Positions 3,401 to 13,697 of a DNA stretch of 19,053 nt are shown in pieces. This stretch comes from an uncultured Gemmatimonadota bacterium (GTDB taxonomy: Bacteria > Gemmatimonadota > Gemmatimonadetes > Gemmatimonadales > Gemmatimonadaceae). The stretch is taken from contig CAMLHT010000042.1 in the NCBI GenBank assembly GCA_946479895.1, positions 1-19,053 on the forward strand. Reading direction: 5' to 3'. Position 1 is the stretch's first letter. Every line of letters starts with the position of its first letter. The position numbers and the translations under genes were made by a program. Below the pieces are notes generated by a model. The model saw nothing but the letters and a program-made list of their open reading frames with translations, was not told the DNA's origin and ran no database searches.

Positions 3401-6004
3401 TTATCCGCCTGTCTCCCTTCCCTCCATTGCGAGTGGTTCCGTGAACGGCATGACACTCCCTGCCATGGCCCGATCGGCCGCGAGGAACTCCCGGAGATAT
3501 GGCGCGGTCCGACTCCGCTTCGAGGCGGCGATCCGGGCCGGAGGCCCTTCACAGACGATCCGCCCCCCTTCCTCCCCCGCGCCCGGCCCCATGTCGATCA
3601 CCCAGTCGCTGTGCGCGACCACGTGCATGTCGTGCTCGACGACGATCACCGTGTTCCCCGCCTCGACCAGCCCGTCGAGCTGCTTCATCAGTCGGTCCAC
3701 ATCGGACGGATGCAGGCCTGTCGTCGGCTCGTCGAGGATGTAGAGCGTCGTCCCCCGCTGTGAGCGCTGGAGCTCCGTCGCGAGCTTGATGCGCTGCGCC
3801 TCGCCGCCCGACAGCTCGGTCGCCGGCTGGCCGAGCCGGAGGTAGCCGAGTCCGACCTGCTGGAGCACGTGGAGCGCGCGGGCCACCGCATCCTCCGACG
3901 CGAAGAACTCCGCCGCCTCGTCCACCGTCATCCGCAGCACCTCGGCGATGTTCTTTCCCTCGTACTTCACCTCGAGCGTCTTCTCGTTGTATCGGGTGCC
4001 CTGGCAGACCGGGCATGCCGTGTAGACGCTGGCGAGGAAGAGCAGCTCCACGCAGACCCAGCCTTCGCCCTCGCAGTTCTCGCAGCGCCCCTTCGCGACG
4101 TTGAACGAGAAGCGCCCCGCGTCATACTTTCGCGCCTTCGCCATCTTCGTCGACGCGAAGAGCTTCCTGACGTGATCGAACAGGCCAGTGTAGGTCGCGA
4201 GGTTCGAGCGTGGGGTTCGCCCGATCGGCTTCTGGTCCACCTGGACGAGGCGGGTGACGTGCTCGAGGCCACCGGCGATCTCACCCGACTCGGTGAGGCT
4301 CGTGTCGCGCTCCAGCGGCGACTCGTCGTCATCGGATTCCGCGCGATGGCCCAGCGCCTCGCCCACCAGCTCGACGAGGACCTGGCTCACGAGGCTGGAC
4401 TTCCCGGAGCCGGAAACGCCGGTCACCGTGGTGAAGGCGCCGATCGGGAAGCGAACGTCGAGGCCGTGCAGGTTGTTGCGGGTGACGCCGGCCAGCTCGA
4501 GCCACTCGCGTGCCTCGCGAGGCGGGCGCGGATTCACGGTCGCCGCGCCGAAGAGGTGCTTCGCCGTCTGGGAGCTCCGGACCTTCGCGAGGCCTTCCAG
4601 CGGGCCGCTGTAGAGGATGCGACCGCCGTGCTGTCCGGCCGCCGGCCCCACGTCCACGATCCAGTCGGCGGCCCGGATGACGTCCACCTCGTGCTCGACG
4701 ACGAACAGCGAGTTGCCGGCCTGCTTGAGCTGCTGCAATGCCGCGAGCAGCGCGAGGGTATCGGCCGGATGGAGACCCGCCGAAGGCTCGTCCAGCACGT
4801 AGACGACCCCGAAGAGGTTCGAGCGCACCTGCGTCGCGAGGCGAAGACGCTGGAGCTCTCCCGGGGAGAGCGTCGGCGTGCTGCGCTCGAGCGAGAGGTA
4901 GCCGAGGCCCAGGTTCAGCAGCACCTCGAGTCGGGACAGGAAATCCACGGTGATTCGCTGCGCCGCCACCGCCTTCTCGGGATGATCGATCCCGAGTTTC
5001 GCGATCGCCGCCGGAGTCTCGCTGGCGTACGGCTCGAGGATCCGTCCGAGCTTCGACATCGGCAGTCGCGCCATGTCGGCGATGTCGAGCCCCGCGAACT
5101 TCACCGCCAGCGATTCGGGCTTGAGCCGCTTGCCGTGACAGGTCGGACATTCGCTCGCGACCATGTATTGCGAGACGCGCTTTCGCATCATCGCGCTCTG
5201 GGAAGTGGCGAAAGTCTCGAGCACGTACTTCCGGGCGCCGATGAACGTGCCCATGTAGTCCGGCTCGGCCTTGCGCTTCTTCTTTCGCTGCACGACGTCG
5301 AGCGGCTCGTGCGCCCAGACGGGAAGCTGCGGCTGCTCCTCGGTGAAGAGCAGGTAGTCGCGCGTCTTCTTCGGCAGCTCGCGCCACGGGACGTCGATGT
5401 CGATGCCCATGGTGGTGACGATGTCCCGGAGGTTCTGGCCCTGCCACGCGCCGGGCCAGCCGGCGATCGCCTTCTCGCGGATGGTGAGCGAGTCGTCGGG
5501 AACGAGCGACTTCTCGCTCACCTCGTAGACGCGCCCGAGGCCGTGACAGGTGGGGCATGCGCCTTCCGGCGAGTTCGTCGAGAACTCCTCGGCGTGCGCG
5601 ATCTCGCGGCCCGGCGGGTAGGTGCCGGCGCGCGAGTACAGCATGCGCAGGAGATTCGAGAGCGTGGTGACGGTGCCGACCGTCGAGCGCGACGTGGGCG
5701 CGCCGCGCTGCTGCTGGAGCGCGACGGCGGGCGGCAGCCCTTCGATCTCGTCGACGTCGGGAACGCCCATCTGGTCGAAGAGGCGGCGGGCGTACGGCGC
5801 CACCGACTCGAGATACCGCCGCTGCGCCTCGGCGTAGAGCGTCCCGAACGCCAGGGAGGACTTTCCCGATCCGGAGACCCCGGTGAACACCACCAGCGAA
5901 TCGCGCGGGATGGCGACGTCGATGTCCTTGAGGTTGTTCTGGCGCGCGCCGCGAACGCGGACGAAGCCCCGCTCGCTGGCGGTCTCTACATTTCTCTCGG
6001 TCAT
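3401..6004 (-). CDS. UvrA2-type (class II) excinuclease ABC subunit A-like ATPase
   Basis: An 867-aa tandem ABC ATPase of the UvrA family. Walker A GVSGSGKSS occurs at 42-50 and 529-537. ABC signatures are LSPGELQRLRLA (379-390) and LSGGEAQRIKLA (731-742). Walker B/D-loops are VLDEPSAGLH (403-412) and ILDEPTTGLH (756-765). Zinc modules are C150-x2-C153 with C286-x2-C289, and C641-x2-C644-x19-C664-x2-C667. Canonical UvrA (about 940 aa) has a UvrB-binding domain of about 110 residues between STVGTVT and the first zinc Cys; here only about 40 residues separate them, so that domain is absent. This is typical of UvrA2/DrrC-type paralogues linked to damage tolerance or drug resistance. The start at 6004 (MTERNVE) leaves 42 bp to the divergent DinB gene. 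A longer reading to 6112 would overlap it. Confidence 0.93.
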   Translation of the reverse strand: MTERNVETASERGFVRVRGARQNNLKDIDVAIPRDSLVVFTGVSGSGKSSLAFGTLYAEAQRRYLESVAPYARRLFDQMGVPDVDEIEGLPPAVALQQQRGAPTSRSTVGTVTTLSNLLRMLYSRAGTYPPGREIAHAEEFSTNSPEGACPTCHGLGRVYEVSEKSLVPDDSLTIREKAIAGWPGAWQGQNLRDIVTTMGIDIDVPWRELPKKTRDYLLFTEEQPQLPVWAHEPLDVVQRKKKRKAEPDYMGTFIGARKYVLETFATSQSAMMRKRVSQYMVASECPTCHGKRLKPESLAVKFAGLDIADMARLPMSKLGRILEPYASETPAAIAKLGIDHPEKAVAAQRITVDFLSRLEVLLNLGLGYLSLERSTPTLSPGELQRLRLATQVRSNLFGVVYVLDEPSAGLHPADTLALLAALQQLKQAGNSLFVVEHEVDVIRAADWIVDVGPAAGQHGGRILYSGPLEGLAKVRSSQTAKHLFGAATVNPRPPREAREWLELAGVTRNNLHGLDVRFPIGAFTTVTGVSGSGKSSLVSQVLVELVGEALGHRAESDDDESPLERDTSLTESGEIAGGLEHVTRLVQVDQKPIGRTPRSNLATYTGLFDHVRKLFASTKMAKARKYDAGRFSFNVAKGRCENCEGEGWVCVELLFLASVYTACPVCQGTRYNEKTLEVKYEGKNIAEVLRMTVDEAAEFFASEDAVARALHVLQQVGLGYLRLGQPATELSGGEAQRIKLATELQRSQRGTTLYILDEPTTGLHPSDVDRLMKQLDGLVEAGNTVIVVEHDMHVVAHSDWVIDMGPGAGEEGGRIVCEGPPARIAASKRSRTAPYLREFLAADRAMAGSVMPFTEPLAMEGRETGG

Positions 6005-8743: not shown

Positions 8744-8892
8744 TGGCATCGGACTTTTCCGTGTCGAGCCTTCTGCATTGGCGTTCAAACGCGGTATTTC
8801 CGGTCCTGATCGAACGAGGATCTGGCCAGAAATTGCCCTCGCGCCGGGAAGATCGACGCCACAGATTAGCGGCCCAATCTCCCCTCGCTCCC

Positions 8893-9192
8893 ATGGCGAA
8901 CGCGAAAGAACTCAAGGCGACGGCGCTGGCGGTCATCACGTTTCTGGTCCGCCCCTCCCTCTTTCTCCTCTTCGGGCTCATCGGCGGATACGCGCTCGGC
9001 TACACCGACGCGTTCCGTGAGTCCGACACCATCGGCAACAAGGTCGCGCGCGCCGTCTACCGGGTGCATCCGGAAGCCCTGAGCCAGGGCATCCAGCAGC
9101 GCGCGTCGATCATCCGCGACACGCTCCACCAGCGCACGGGCGTGATCGAGACGCCCGCGGCGGAGGTGCCTCCCGAAATCCCGCCGATCTAG
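8893..9192 (+). CDS. Single-TM hypothetical protein
   Basis: A 99-aa protein with one clear membrane helix (about 11-35: ALAVITFLVRPSLFLLFGLIGGYALGY), then a short soluble region with GIQQRASIIRDTLHQRTG and a Pro/Glu-rich end (VIETPAAEVPPEIPPI). I do not recognise a family. The start at 8893 (MANAKEL) is the only ATG placed sensibly before the TM; a GTG at 8743 in frame would add a 50-residue polar extension and is unlikely. No Shine-Dalgarno is visible. Its stop overlaps the stop of the convergent allantoicase gene by 3 bp. Confidence 0.7.
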   Translation: MANAKELKATALAVITFLVRPSLFLLFGLIGGYALGYTDAFRESDTIGNKVARAVYRVHPEALSQGIQQRASIIRDTLHQRTGVIETPAAEVPPEIPPI

Positions 9193-10184
9193 TCCCCGGC
9201 GTTCCCGAACAGCCGCAGTCGCGCGACGCCGCCGTCGGGGTAGATATTGAGCCGGACGTGCGTGGCGGGATGCGAGTCGAACTCGTACCACTTGTGCCGC
9301 GTGTGCGGCTCGAGCGGCGTTTCGGGCAACAGCTCCTTCCAGGGCGCGGCCGCGAAGGCGCCCGGGTCCAGGAAGTCACCGTCGGGAACGTCCGCGTATT
9401 CCAGCATGCACCTTCCCGGGGCGTTGCCCTTGAAGTGATCGGTGTCGAGCTCGATCCGGCTGATGCGCCCGCGCCGCGCGAGCCGAACGATCGTCCAGTC
9501 GTGGCCCGGCCCCCGCCGCCGTTTCGTCTGCCAGCCATCGCCCATGTTCACCGCGCGGCCGGGCAGGATCAGGTTCTGCCGGTCGCCGTAGTGCATGTCG
9601 CTGCACGCCACGACGTATCCGCCGTTCTCCATCGCCGCCAGGTCCGCCTCGCGCGAGAACACGTCGGCATCCGGCACGACTTCACCGTGCACGCGCAGCC
9701 GGGCGACGCCGCCGTCGGGAAAGATGTTCAGCCGCACGTGCGTGACGCGCCGGCGCTGCCCCGCGATGTCGAAGTGATTGGGCCGGTCGCCCTCCAGCAG
9801 CGACGGCGCGAGCAGCGAATCCCAGTGCACCGCGCCGCTCAGGATGCCCTCGATCGACGCGTTGTCGCCGAGCGCGCACGCATCGACGCTCGCCCGCTCG
9901 GGGTAGTTGCCGGTGAAGTGGCTCGTGTCGATCACGATTCCGCGGACGATGCCCGGCGCGCCAAGGCGCACGATCGCCCAGTCGTGCCCCGGCGTCCGCC
10001 GCCGCCGCGTTTCCCAGCCATCCATCCACATGCCGCGCTCGGTGAAGACGCCTTCGCGGAGCTCGGGCGCTCCAGGCTTGATGAGCGCCTCCTTCGGCGC
10101 GAAGAACTCGTCGTTGGCGGCGAGCACCGCGCCGCCGAGGCGCTCCGAGGCGAGGTCGATGAGATCGGTGAAGGGCAGAGTCAT
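9189..10184 (-). CDS. alc: Allantoicase
   Basis: A 331-aa enzyme that hydrolyses allantoate to ureidoglycolate and urea in purine-nitrogen catabolism. It consists of two homologous jelly-roll repeats. The first has DGWETRRRRTPGHDWAIVRLG, DTSHFTGNYPERASVDAC and HVRLNIFPDGGVARLRVHGEV. The second has DGWQTKRRRGPGHDWTIVRLA, DTDHFKGNAPGRCMLEYA and HVRLNIYPDGGVARLRLFG. The motifs DTDHFKGN and RLNIYPDGGVARLR are diagnostic for the family and length is normal. The start ATG at 10184 is followed by the expected N-terminus (TDLIDLASERLGGAVLAANDEFFAPKEALI). It is transcribed away from the methionine operon, with about 30 bp to the -35 of the opposing promoter. No uricase or ureidoglycolate lyase is present in the window. 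Confidence 0.97.
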   Translation of the reverse strand: MTLPFTDLIDLASERLGGAVLAANDEFFAPKEALIKPGAPELREGVFTERGMWMDGWETRRRRTPGHDWAIVRLGAPGIVRGIVIDTSHFTGNYPERASVDACALGDNASIEGILSGAVHWDSLLAPSLLEGDRPNHFDIAGQRRRVTHVRLNIFPDGGVARLRVHGEVVPDADVFSREADLAAMENGGYVVACSDMHYGDRQNLILPGRAVNMGDGWQTKRRRGPGHDWTIVRLARRGRISRIELDTDHFKGNAPGRCMLEYADVPDGDFLDPGAFAAAPWKELLPETPLEPHTRHKWYEFDSHPATHVRLNIYPDGGVARLRLFGNAGD

Positions 10185-10212
10185 GCGGGGATGTTAGGCG
10201 CTCGACCCCGGC

Positions 10213-10241
10213 TTGACGAGAACCGCGGCCCGGGATATCCT
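10213..10241 (+). promoter_or_regulatory. Predicted sigma-70 promoter of the metX leader
   Basis: TTGACG (10213-10218) and TATCCT (10236-10241) match 5/6 and 4/6 consensus bases with an exact 17-bp spacer. Transcription would start near 10248, about 13 nt before the riboswitch P1 stem, which is a sensible placement. Confidence 0.65.
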
Positions 10242-10257
10242 GTTGGCACAATCGAAG

Positions 10258-10314
10258 GTTCGTGGTGATTTGCCGCCTATTGCCGCCACGTAAAACAAGG
10301 AGCTAAAACGCGAC
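10258..10314 (+). ncRNA. SAM-II riboswitch (S-adenosylmethionine aptamer)
   Basis: The sequence matches the SAM-II consensus: GGTGATTTG, then TTGC..GCCACGT, an A-rich linker and GCTAAA. P1 is CGTGGTG (10261-10267) paired with CGCCACG (10284-10290), with one G-U pair. The conserved GATTTG (10267-10272) and GCTAAAA (10302-10308) are in place, and CGC (10274-10276) can form the pseudoknot with GCG (10310-10312). It precedes metX and metB-type genes, the class's usual targets. SAM binding should lower expression of the operon. Here an intrinsic terminator follows directly, suggesting control of transcription instead of the translational control usual for this class. Confidence 0.95.
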
Positions 10315-10315
10315 G

Positions 10316-10348
10316 TGCCCGGCGGCAGTTATTCGCCCGGGCATTTTT
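10316..10348 (+). terminator. Intrinsic terminator (attenuator) of the metX leader
   Basis: TGCCCGG (10316-10322) pairs with CCGGGCA (10337-10343), followed by TTTTT (10344-10348). It is 2 nt after the riboswitch and 85 nt before the metX start codon, so it must be read through for expression. Its 5' arm overlaps GGCGGCA (10321-10327), the exact complement of TGCCGCC in the aptamer. Confidence 0.88.
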
Positions 10349-10433
10349 CGTTTCCAGCGGTTCGCGCTCGCGCGGGCCTCCGGATCGAACGTCACGAGAA
10401 GTCAGCGGCTGGACGTTGGATCGGAGGAATTGA

Positions 10434-11378
10434 ATGACCGCGCTGGAACTGCGCTCGCCACCGGCGGGCGCCACTCGTGGCAGCCTGCTGCCCCGCTACA
10501 CGCTCGTCGGCCGCACCGACGCGCCGGTCGTCGTGATCCTCGGCGGCATCTCGGCGACGCGCCACGTCGTCTTCGGCGAAGCGCCGGGCGAGACAGGCTG
10601 GTGGTCGAAGGTCGCCGGCGAAGGCCGAGCCATCGACATCGGGCGATACCGCGTGCTCGGCCTCGACTTCATGGACGGCGGCCGCGACGCGTCGGGGCGT
10701 CCTCGTCGCACCATCACGACGCACGACCAGGCGCTCTGGCTCGCCCGCGTCCTCCGCACGCTCGGCGTATCGCGCGCCAGGGCCGTGATCGGCGCGTCGT
10801 ACGGCGGCATGGTGGCGCTCGCCTTCGCCGACCGCTTTCCGGCGCTGCTGGAGCAGCTCGTGGTGATCAGCGCCCCGCACGAGTCCCATCCGATGAGCAC
10901 CGCGCTGCGCACGCTGCAGCGGCGAACCGTGGAGCTCGGCCTCGAGACGGGCCGCATCGACGACGCGATGTCCATCGCCCGGGGCATCGCCATGACGACG
11001 TATCGCACCGCCGGGGAGTTCGCCGGGCGCTTCGCCAGCACCCCGCTCTCCCGCGGGCGCAACGACGCCCGCTTTCCCGTCGACGCATACCTGCGCGACC
11101 GAGGCGATCGCTTCGCCGCCGCGATGCGCCCGGAGCGGTTCCTCGCCCTGTCGCTGTCGAGCGATCTCCACCGGGTGGATCCGGCGCGCATCACCACACC
11201 GACCACGGTGGTCGCCGCCGAAGGCGACACCATCGTCCCGGCCGAGCAGCTCGCGGCGCTGTCCGCGCAGCTCGGCGGCACCAGCTCCCTCGTCGAATTG
11301 CCGACCCGCGTCGGCCATGACGCCTTCCTCGTCGAGACCGCACGGGTCTCCTCCATCCTCACCGCTGCCCTGAGCTGA
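10434..11378 (+). CDS. metX: Homoserine O-acyltransferase, MetX family (alpha/beta hydrolase)
   Basis: A 314-aa cytoplasmic enzyme that acylates homoserine (acetyl or succinyl donor) in the first committed step to methionine. The alpha/beta-hydrolase core is clear: VVVILGGIS (oxyanion strand, 32-40), nucleophile elbow GASYGGM (Ser122), Asp265 (EGDTIVP) and His295 (VGHDAF). At 314 aa it is shorter than classical MetX (about 370-380 aa) and resembles the short Xanthomonas-type MetX, several of which use succinyl-CoA, so the acyl donor is left open. The start is fixed by GGAGG at 10423-10427, 6 nt before ATG. It sits behind a SAM-II riboswitch and terminator, and its stop is 3 bp before the next gene. 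Confidence 0.93.
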   Translation: MTALELRSPPAGATRGSLLPRYTLVGRTDAPVVVILGGISATRHVVFGEAPGETGWWSKVAGEGRAIDIGRYRVLGLDFMDGGRDASGRPRRTITTHDQALWLARVLRTLGVSRARAVIGASYGGMVALAFADRFPALLEQLVVISAPHESHPMSTALRTLQRRTVELGLETGRIDDAMSIARGIAMTTYRTAGEFAGRFASTPLSRGRNDARFPVDAYLRDRGDRFAAAMRPERFLALSLSSDLHRVDPARITTPTTVVAAEGDTIVPAEQLAALSAQLGGTSSLVELPTRVGHDAFLVETARVSSILTAALS

Positions 11379-11381
11379 CCG

Positions 11382-13697
11382 ATGACCATCGCCTCCTCGA
11401 CCGCCACCGCCACCGCCGCCGTCCGCGCCGGCATCGCCTCCGACCGCCATCACGGCGCCGTCGTCCCACCGCTCCATCTCTCGGCCAACTTCGCCTTCGC
11501 CGGATTCAACAAGCCGCGCGAGTTCGACTATACGCGCAGCGGGAATCCGACGCGGTCACACCTCGCCGAGGCGATCACCGACCTCGAGGGAGGCGCGAGC
11601 GCCGTGGTCACGAGCACCGGGATGTCGGCCGTGACGCTCGTGCTCCAGCTCGTGAAGCCGGGCGACACCGTGCTCGCCGCGCATGACTGTTACGGCGGGA
11701 CGCAGCGCCTGCTCCGCGGCCTCGCCGCGCGCGGTCATTTCAACGTCGTCTTCGCCGACCTCACGACGTCCACGGGGCTCGACGAGATCGCGCGATGTCG
11801 GGCGCGCCTGGTCTGGGTGGAGACGCCCAGCAATCCCCTTCTCCGGATCACCGACATCGCCGCGGTGACGTCGGTGGCCCACGCCGTCGGGTCCGTCGTC
11901 GTCGTCGACAACACCTTCCTCTCTCCGGTGCTCCAGCGGCCGCTCGCGCTCGGCGCGGACCTCGTGGTGCATTCGACGACGAAGTACCTCAACGGCCACA
12001 GCGACGTGGTCGGCGGATGCGTGGTCGCCGCCGACGCGGGCCTCGGCGACGAGCTGCGCTGGTGGGGCAACGCGCTGGGCGTCACCGGCGCGCCGTTCGA
12101 CAGCTACCTGACCCTCCGTGGCCTGCGCACCCTGCACGTCCGCATCCGCCAGCACGTCGAGAACGCCGAGGCCGTGGTGGCCGCGCTGCGCGAGCACCCC
12201 GCCGTCGCGCGGCTGTACTACCCCGGGCTCGCGACGCACATCGGCCACGACGTCGCGCGACGCCAGCAGTCGGGCTTCGGGGCGATGGCCAGCTTCGAGA
12301 TCGAGGGCGGAACCGCCGCCGTCGAGCGATTCACCGAACGCCTGCGCCACTTCACGCTCGCCGAATCACTCGGCGGCGTCGAAAGCCTCATCGCGCACCC
12401 GGCGACGATGACCCACGCGTCCATGACCGGCGAGGCGCGCGCTGCCGCGGGCATCAGCGAATCGCTCGTGCGCCTGTCCATCGGCATCGAGTCGGCCGAT
12501 GACCTGATCGCCGACCTCCATCAGGCACTCGGAGCCGCCACGCGTACGCGACCGGTCGTCGCGGTCCCGGCGGCCGTCGCGGCGGCGGCGCCGGCGTCGG
12601 ACCGCGCCGATGTCATCCTGCTCGGCGCGGGCGCCATCGCCCGTGAGCTGATGGACCAGGTCTCCGACTGCGCGTCGGGCAGGACGCTGAGGATCTGCGG
12701 CGTCGTCGACCGCTCGGGTCACGTCTTCGACGGCGACGGCATCGCCGCCGGCACGCTGGCGGAGCTGGCCGCGCACAAGAAGAACGGCCGCTCGCTGGCC
12801 GAGCATGCGTTCGGAGTGGAGTCGACGCCCGAGCGATCGGTCGAGTCGGTGACGTCGCGGCAGGGCCTGGTGAATCCGATCCTCGTGGATCTCACCGCGT
12901 CGGAGACTTCGCCGCTGCTCGAGACGGCGCTCAACCGTGGCTTCGACCTCGTGCTCGCGAACAAGGTCCCCCTGGCCGGTGACCAGCAATCGATCGACAA
13001 CCTCTTCGTCGCCGCGGCACTCGGTGGTCGCCGGGTGCTGAGTGAAGCGACGGTGGGCGCGGGACTCCCGGTGCTCGACACGATCAGGAAGCTGACCGAA
13101 TCCGGCGACGAGATCCTCTCGATCGAGGGCTGCCCGTCGGGCACTCTCGGTTTCCTGCTCGGCGAGGTCGGGCGCGGCGCGAGCTTCTCGGAGGCGCTGG
13201 GCGCGGCCATCGAGAGCGGGTATACGGAACCCGATCCCCGGGTCGACCTCTCCGGGCTGGACGTCGCGCGAAAGGCGCTGATCCTCGCCCGGCTCATCGG
13301 GTATCGCGGGAGCCTGTCCGACGTCAGCGTCGATTCGCTCGTTCCTCCGGCGCTCGCGAACGTCTCGCTCCCCGAGTTCCTCGATCGCGTCGGCGAGCTC
13401 GACGCCGAGTGGTCGGGGCGCGTCGCCGCGGCGACGGCGCGCGGCGAGATCCTGCGCTATCGCGCGCGGGTGACGCCCACGTCGATCACCGTGGGGCTGG
13501 TCGGTGTCAGCGCCACCGATCCGCTCGCGTCACTCACCGGCACCGACAACCAGTTCGCGATCACCACGCGACGCTATCGTCAGCCGCTGGTGATCACGGG
13601 GCCGGGCGCCGGCGCGCCTGTCACGGCGGCTGGTGTCTTTGCCGATATCCTGCGTCTCGTTTCGGAGCGCCGACAACCGGCGAACGTCACCGCCTGA
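11382..13697 (+). CDS. Fusion of cystathionine gamma-synthase-type enzyme (MetB) and homoserine dehydrogenase
   Basis: One 771-aa ORF with two complete enzymes. Residues about 12-385 are a PLP Cys/Met-metabolism enzyme: YTRSGNPT (50-57), Tyr104, VVDNTF with Asp176, PLP Lys201 in STTKYLNGHSDVVGG, and SLVRLSIGIE near its end. An Ala/Pro linker (about 388-407) follows. Residues about 408-771 are homoserine dehydrogenase: Rossmann VILLGAGAIA (411-420), LANKVPLAG (Lys528), EATVGAGLPVL (555-565), CPSGTLG (584-590), and GYTEPDPR..DLSGLDVARK with Lys631. No ACT domain is attached. The product would make homoserine and consume O-acylhomoserine, with MetX acting between. Whether the first half uses cysteine (MetB) or sulfide (MetZ) is not certain. 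The reading frame is continuous without slippery features, so the fusion looks genuine. Confidence 0.93.
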   Translation: MTIASSTATATAAVRAGIASDRHHGAVVPPLHLSANFAFAGFNKPREFDYTRSGNPTRSHLAEAITDLEGGASAVVTSTGMSAVTLVLQLVKPGDTVLAAHDCYGGTQRLLRGLAARGHFNVVFADLTTSTGLDEIARCRARLVWVETPSNPLLRITDIAAVTSVAHAVGSVVVVDNTFLSPVLQRPLALGADLVVHSTTKYLNGHSDVVGGCVVAADAGLGDELRWWGNALGVTGAPFDSYLTLRGLRTLHVRIRQHVENAEAVVAALREHPAVARLYYPGLATHIGHDVARRQQSGFGAMASFEIEGGTAAVERFTERLRHFTLAESLGGVESLIAHPATMTHASMTGEARAAAGISESLVRLSIGIESADDLIADLHQALGAATRTRPVVAVPAAVAAAAPASDRADVILLGAGAIARELMDQVSDCASGRTLRICGVVDRSGHVFDGDGIAAGTLAELAAHKKNGRSLAEHAFGVESTPERSVESVTSRQGLVNPILVDLTASETSPLLETALNRGFDLVLANKVPLAGDQQSIDNLFVAAALGGRRVLSEATVGAGLPVLDTIRKLTESGDEILSIEGCPSGTLGFLLGEVGRGASFSEALGAAIESGYTEPDPRVDLSGLDVARKALILARLIGYRGSLSDVSVDSLVPPALANVSLPEFLDRVGELDAEWSGRVAAATARGEILRYRARVTPTSITVGLVGVSATDPLASLTGTDNQFAITTRRYRQPLVITGPGAGAPVTAAGVFADILRLVSERRQPANVTA

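Follow-up and report, generated by a model that had tools for sequence, protein, structure and literature searches.

A SAM-II riboswitch probably shuts down a methionine operon by terminating its transcription in an uncultured soil member of the Gemmatimonadota, a reading to which we give a probability of roughly 0.7. The window, that is, the whole stretch of DNA analysed here, comprises 19,053 nucleotides (positions 1 to 19,053 of contig CAMLHT010000042.1, assembly GCA_946479895.1, Gemmatimonadaceae). Modelling of its leader makes SAM-dependent termination likely, and SAM binding itself, the dependence of termination on SAM, the kinetics of the switch and the choice between two candidate antiterminator strands are what we infer. 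SAM-II aptamers joined to terminators are a known kind of element and most of the arrangement is ordinary; what sets it apart is the host phylum and perhaps the switching strand. In the literature searched, which includes few subscription journals, there is no report of SAM-II from Gemmatimonadota, and PMC9331176, a paper in which both riboswitches and this group occur, does not mention it. If the switch works as read, terminator-type SAM-II control would extend to the Gemmatimonadota, and a compact leader of ~100 nt would become available for the study of a pseudoknot strand shared by aptamer and terminator. The accepted role of SAM-II riboswitches is unchanged.

The aptamer and its gene context

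The preliminary description of this DNA had assigned the leader to SAM-II by reading the letters, and a covariance-model search upholds the assignment. The Rfam SAM-II model (SAM_alpha, RF00521) matches positions 10252-10326 of the forward strand with 37.0 bits, about 1 bit above the gathering score of 36. This margin is narrow; the corresponding leader of Gemmatirosa kalamazoonensis reaches 38.1 bits, and eight SAM-II matches from alphaproteobacterial plasmid records score 73 to 86.7 bits. Apart from SAM_alpha, no Rfam family matches 10200-10460 at E<=1, which led us to reject a different ligand class or an additional riboswitch for this leader.

The helices expected of the class are present on the forward strand. 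P1 is formed by CGTGG (10261-10265) and CCACG (10286-10290). The P2 pseudoknot consists of P2a (CGC 10274-10276 with GCG 10310-10312), P2b (UUGC 10280-10283 with GCUA 10302-10305) and C10284 with G10300 (pair 24-40), its 3′ strands falling within 10300-10312, in the same register as in the metZ-type leaders described below; position numbers follow crystal structure 2QWY. For the alignment of leaders the pseudoknot register was assigned by ourselves. Twelve loci were given, one of which (L013) went unmatched by the regular expression, and nine distinct leaders are of alphaproteobacterial type. The terms metZ-type (L009, L011, L015 and L035) and metA-type (L010, L012, L014 and L016) are labels of this analysis: metA is annotated at L010 and L012, and the other types were assigned from how the downstream frame begins.

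Pairs U20-A45, U21.U44, G22-C43 and C23-G42 occur in the window as they do in all 11 leaders compared. Pair 24-40 is C-G in the window and A-U in the nine alphaproteobacterial-type leaders, pair 15-51 is G-C as against C-G, U-G or U-A in metZ-type leaders, and pair 14-52 is C-G as against G-C. At all three positions both sides differ from the metZ-type leaders while pairing is retained, and because these pseudoknot pairs are compensated a folded SAM-II aptamer is supported. Judged by its pairing, then, the low RF00521 score of the window aptamer is not a sign of decay, and, if the switch works as read, a well-formed aptamer can hide behind a 1-bit Rfam margin. Pair 24-40 may be the Watson-Crick pair inferred by Barrick & Breaker (PMC2258182) between the last base of the loop enclosed by P1 and a downstream position. 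In the metA-type leaders and in L031, a leader from a viral contig, some P2a pairs are broken in the register used here, which would be consistent with a shifted P2a register.

As is expected of SAM-II, genes of methionine biosynthesis lie downstream. The first is metX (10434-11378, forward strand), encoding a homoserine O-acyltransferase that matches NF006449, 'homoserine O-succinyltransferase MetX', with 321 bits (cut-off 296). It is followed on the same strand by a gene which, according to its protein matches, encodes a fusion of cystathionine gamma-synthase (MetB) with homoserine dehydrogenase (metB-hom, 11382-13697). Among the 120 protein matches listed for the fusion, two bear an organism name, in both cases Gemmatimonadaceae bacterium, and the best match among plasmid records is to Gemmatirosa kalamazoonensis. 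A sigma-70-like promoter, TTGACG - 17 nt - TATCCT, spans 10213-10241 of the forward strand and agrees with the consensus at 9 of 12 positions (mean 0.0 in 50 shuffles); it ends ~20 nt 5′ of P1, and a promoter-like site directly upstream is typical of the SAM-II class (Corbino, 2005, PMC1273637). An allantoicase gene on the reverse strand (9189-10184) diverges from the leader.

A single relative, Gemmatirosa kalamazoonensis (plasmid 1, locus L002), was compared. There a matching leader likewise precedes metX. A BLAST search with a 230-nt query gave 86.8% identity over 106 nt (10247-10352), where the alignment ends, and the two MetX proteins are 60% identical. The promoter is arranged alike (TTGACG - 17 - TAGCAT). 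In Gemmatirosa the MetB and homoserine dehydrogenase parts are separate frames, the second of which, by eye, includes an aspartate kinase-like part.

The terminator and its complementarity to the aptamer

Between aptamer and gene the sequence predicts an intrinsic terminator, as is required of a riboswitch that terminates transcription (10315-10348, forward strand). Its stem is formed by 10315-10325 and 10333-10344 with C10336 bulged, and a tract of five T follows at 10344-10348. The 10315-10344 hairpin has a folding energy of -16.4 to -16.5 kcal/mol, equalled by 4 of 200 shuffles, and the letters given for the terminator in the preliminary description are right. A consensus terminator scan of 10100-10500 listed none, perhaps because a loop of 9 nt (7 with the closing wobble) together with the bulge makes it blind to this hairpin. 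The description had also placed the terminator 2 nt after the aptamer: this distance is right when counted from the end of P2a at G10312 to G10315, but the match to the Rfam model extends into the terminator.

The aptamer contains TGCCGCC twice. Copy 1 (10271-10277) lies in loop L1 and holds the P2a 5′ strand, and copy 2 (10281-10287) covers part of P2b, C10284 and the first bases of the P1 3′ strand. Both are exact complements of GGCGGCA (10321-10327), which covers part of the terminator 5′ arm and the start of its loop, and copy 2 extends to nine pairs through T10280-G10328 (a wobble) and A10279-T10329; these coordinates, given in the preliminary description, are correct to the base. Seven Watson-Crick pairs are, however, reached in 400 of 5000 shuffles of the aptamer, in 215 of 5000 of the terminator arm and in 711 of 5428 genuine 56-nt segments taken from the window; for nine pairs with wobble the counts are 484 of 5000 for the shuffled aptamer and 518 of 5428 for the segments. 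The complementarity between arm and aptamer is by itself within chance (4-13%). Two copies of TGCCGCC appear in none of 5000 shuffles, a pattern that was picked post hoc; copy 2, to judge from its letters, is also accounted for by what the aptamer needs there (UUGC, C24 and P1).

In Gemmatirosa both sides of the terminator pair U10316-A10343 have changed, to C-G, and the hairpin reaches -20.5 kcal/mol. The loop is mostly different in sequence, with its first bases GC kept, completing GGCGGC, and the T tract is weaker (TTTGTCGTT). Both copies there retain the six pairs of GCCGCC with GGCGGC, so that the leader and the core of the proposed antiterminator are kept in the relative, but the seventh pair and the extension to nine are lost. 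From P1 to P2a the two aptamers differ at one base, and conservation of the L1 element therefore tells little. The covariation that the preliminary description looked to for confirmation of the antiterminator is not demonstrable between two nearly identical aptamers.

Predicted folding and the choice of strand

Folding was calculated with a nested-only model for the free leader and for a leader in which P1 was enforced and the pseudoknot bases were kept unpaired. The probability of the window terminator rises from 0.16 in the free state to 0.87 under the constraint (0.18 to 0.85 in a second run, for which the terminator was defined slightly differently), and that of the Gemmatirosa terminator from 0.001 to 0.89 in both runs. 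When terminators were rebuilt from the same base pairs as a control, 69 of 2000 redesigns of the window were as blocked as the real sequence and 60 of 2000 showed as large a switch; the second run gave 20 and 15 of 500, and for Gemmatirosa 1 of 500 was as blocked, the two species not being independent of each other. Folding with and without the aptamer constraint, a check proposed in the preliminary description, thus favours a switch, but forcing P1 alone also gives 0.87, because the nested model forbids L1 to pair outwards once P1 is closed. Since P1 alone suffices, the contrast between the two states reflects P1 plus aptamer and not SAM as such.

In SAM-II RNA, P1 is reported to be protected with or without SAM, and P2 and L1 to be exposed without it (PMC10907184). 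It is therefore probable that the free RNA in reality combines P1 with a helix of L1 and the terminator arm, a pseudoknot like P2 itself and of a kind outside what the nested model computes. The helix of L1 with GGCGGC has -14.3 to -15.9 kcal/mol before any pseudoknot penalty, and L1 with GCG 10310-10312 has -1.7. Like the 5′ strand of P2, copy 1 could in principle find a partner outside P1 while P1 stays closed. The nested free fold also has the P1 5′ strand paired with the terminator 3′ arm; if that strand (10258-10268) is kept unpaired, the terminator rises from 0.16 to 0.54, and with P1 closed this help in blocking the terminator would be missing. The pairing of arm and aptamer that would exclude the bound fold is favoured in the free fold, though by a model that cannot hold P1 and the L1:arm helix together and from a complementarity that lies within chance.

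When the nested fold is followed along the lengthening RNA, the arm is paired with copy 2 for RNA exposed to 10327-10336 (0.83-0.99) and with copy 1 from 10338 on (0.63-0.88). With the three P2a bases in copy 1 (10274-10276) barred from pairing, the terminator rises from 0.16 to 0.70; blocking all of copy 1 gives 0.56, both copies 0.87 and copy 2 alone 0.11. Because blocking copy 1 raises the terminator and blocking copy 2 does not, copy 1 is in this model the likelier final antiterminator strand and the likelier of the two to be controlled by SAM. The preliminary description had favoured the 9-bp helix of copy 2, which is reduced to 6 bp in Gemmatirosa and in the model gives way to copy 1 as the 3′ arm emerges. 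What survives of its switching proposal is the SAM-II aptamer, the terminator and a pairing of arm and aptamer that would compete with the bound fold; copy 2 is the less likely main strand.

The proposed sequence of events is as follows. In the SAM-bound state the pseudoknot would engage the L1 strand (10274-10276 and 10280-10284) with 10300-10312, leaving the arm 10315-10325 available to pair with 10333-10344, and transcription would end at the T tract. Without SAM, GCCGCC of L1 would capture GGCGGC(A) (10321-10327) ahead of synthesis of the terminator 3′ arm; copy 2 would perhaps be a transient partner and copy 1 the one in place when the outcome is decided, and the antiterminated RNA polymerase would read into metX and metB-hom. 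The antiterminator arm is complete by 10327 and the terminator alone is weak until ~10340 (-7.8 kcal/mol when the exposed RNA ends at 10340, -16.7 at 10344), which would therefore give the antiterminator a head start of ~13 nt; through the free toehold 10315-10320 the terminator could later displace it. The same logic is found in SAM-I (S-box) riboswitches, the aptamer fold of which is unrelated to SAM-II, where the bound aptamer releases a terminator and the free aptamer supports an antiterminator. Release of a terminator by the bound aptamer, as proposed for the window, is also described for a SAM-I variant in PMC10853860, a paper rejected as a candidate source of SAM-II variants, its subject being variants of SAM-I.

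Terminators are not foreign to this class. Many SAM-II elements have putative terminators (Corbino, 2005, PMC1273637), most often in alpha- and beta-Proteobacteria (Barrick & Breaker, PMC2258182), and among the 120 examples first described SAM-II preceding SAM-V was always 5′ of a terminator (PMC9481103). SAM-II is listed among riboswitches that occlude the ribosome-binding site in PMC10907184, and the earlier view that it acts on translation, with a terminator unusual, thus fits the best-studied example but not the class as these sources describe it. The closest counterpart is the Sinorhizobium meliloti metZ leader, which like the window has SAM-II, a terminator a few nucleotides 3′ of P2 and a methionine gene. 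SAM-induced termination is predicted there, the RZ sRNA is commoner in rich (high-SAM) medium, and the terminator of the metA leader is predicted to be independent of SAM (Scheuer et al., 2022, PMC9373788).

Eleven leaders served as a check of the folding method. Among metZ-type leaders the terminator rises from 0.31 (L009 and L015) or 0.002 (L011) to 0.98 in each, with 33 of 500 L009 redesigns as blocked; L035 does not switch (0.964 versus 0.965). The metA-type leaders L010, L016, L012 and L014 go from 0.91-0.99 to 0.98-0.99, which is no switch, and for L010, S. meliloti metA, the values are 0.99 and 0.99 with 368 of 500 redesigns as blocked. No terminator was found in L031. The results for L009 and L010, both from S. 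meliloti, agree with the predictions of Scheuer et al. (PMC9373788).

That metA leader is also the precedent for the strongest competing explanation, namely a functional aptamer followed by an attenuator that ignores SAM, the complementarity to L1 being a by-product of GC-richness and aptamer constraints. We regard this as unlikely. In its favour, the complementarity is at the 4-13% chance level, P1 forced alone raises the terminator to 0.87, and the S. meliloti metA leader resembles the window in having SAM-II, a terminator and then a homoserine acyltransferase gene (PMC9373788), with no predicted dependence on SAM. Against it, blocking in the free fold exceeds that of most redesigns (69 of 2000 in the window and 1 of 500 in Gemmatirosa being as blocked). 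The terminator also starts 2 nt after the pseudoknot in the window, compared with 6 nt in L009, L011 and L015 and 21 nt in L010, L014 and L016, S. meliloti metA among the last; this is weak evidence, because the metA-type leader L012 has 6 nt and yet no switch.

If SAM does control the terminator, the strand used may set this family apart. The terminator 5′ arm is matched to L1 over 7 nt in the window and 6 nt in Gemmatirosa, and to the P2a 3′ side over 3 nt in both. Among metZ-type leaders, by contrast, the arm matches the P2a 3′ strand by 7 (Shinella, L011), 6 (L035) and 4 (L009) and L1 by 6, 5 and 5, and in the metA-type L010, L012 and L014 neither match exceeds 4. The predicted partner of the arm is L1 in the window (0.62) and Gemmatirosa (0.65) and the P2 3′ side in L011 (0.75), but not in L009 or L035. 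Somewhat short of even odds, Gemmatimonadaceae may have rewired the SAM-II platform such that the arm competes for the L1 (5′) strand, whereas some rhizobial metZ-type leaders have it compete for the 3′ strand; a handover from copy 2 to copy 1 may be part of this platform, and a hairpin that buries the Shine-Dalgarno sequence follows downstream. Such a platform is suggested and not established, because the partners in L009 and L035 disagree and three metZ-type sequences were compared. If true, competition for L1 would be a strand-swapped answer to the same switching problem.

Translation and the downstream leader

The Shine-Dalgarno sequence of metX, GGAGG (10423-10427), is buried in a hairpin with CCTCCG (10377-10382; 10377-10427 overall, forward strand, CCTCCG/CGGAGG by eye). 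It is likewise buried in Gemmatirosa by a differing sequence (L002 3945-3998, CCCTCCA/TGGAGGG), unpaired probabilities being 0.04 and 0.00 in the two species. Control might therefore be mainly translational, SAM hiding the ribosome-binding site by closing P2 or through the downstream hairpin and the terminator being secondary. An AAGGAG at 10297-10302, inside the aptamer 3′ side, is in keeping with this, as is the use of an aptamer Shine-Dalgarno at a distance by S. meliloti metA (PMC9373788). Yet metX has its own Shine-Dalgarno ~110 nt past the pseudoknot, AAGGAG has become AAGGTG in Gemmatirosa, and no conserved pairing between the aptamer and the Shine-Dalgarno hairpin is seen by eye. Moreover, burial to this degree is matched by 15 of 300 shuffles for the window and 2 of 300 for Gemmatirosa, and 2 of 11 other gene starts are equally closed. 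We consider mainly translational control improbable, clearly more so than a SAM-independent attenuator. Pairing of GGAG (10299-10302) with the anti-Shine-Dalgarno CTCC (10378-10381), a candidate link from SAM to the hairpin, was rejected by eye as the motif is GGTG in Gemmatirosa.

An ON switch, in which GGCGGC would replace or extend the P2a 3′ strand when the aptamer is bound and the ligand would favour read-through, is very hard to credit despite the stronger pairing of GGCGGC with L1 (-14.3 to -15.9 versus -1.7 kcal/mol for GCG 10310-10312), since GCG sits in the P2a register of the metZ-type leaders (positions 50-52), the long linker would presumably break up the compact pseudoknot, and activation of methionine synthesis genes by SAM would make poor metabolic sense.

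Tandem SAM-II/SAM-V leaders (PMC9481103; Pelagibacter, PMC11508383) differ from the window, which is without SAM-V or another second aptamer and has in its place the hairpin that buries the Shine-Dalgarno sequence, with no known ligand. A frame at 10315-10437 (40 aa) in the window and one at 3833-4009 of L002 (58 aa) each overlap the metX ATG, which would possibly allow translational coupling. The idea that the 40-aa frame encodes a conserved leader peptide was rejected: Gemmatirosa has GCG where this frame has GTG, and the 58-aa frame is a different one, with no evident likeness by eye. L002 also has a second strong terminator-like hairpin at 3957-3985, directly 5′ of the metX Shine-Dalgarno, and a long inverted repeat at 8851-8949, just 3′ of the homoserine dehydrogenase frame, that matches Rfam microRNA families below their cut-offs.

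Beyond Gemmatirosa, a MetX scan of the genome contigs gave a 36% partial match in Nocardiopsis and nothing closer, and the viral contigs scanned for the leader pattern and for a MetB-hom relative held neither. A looser leader pattern picked out 30 stretches in the viral contigs, all of which were scanned with Rfam, and two hold SAM-II, both in IMG/VR contigs: L031 (1334-1411, 74.6 bits) and L035 (12041-12119, 80.7 bits). By eye these have an alphaproteobacterial look and are perhaps host flanks of proviruses. A further IMG/VR contig, L032, has a Glutamine-II riboswitch on the reverse strand at 1141-1203 (66.4 bits).
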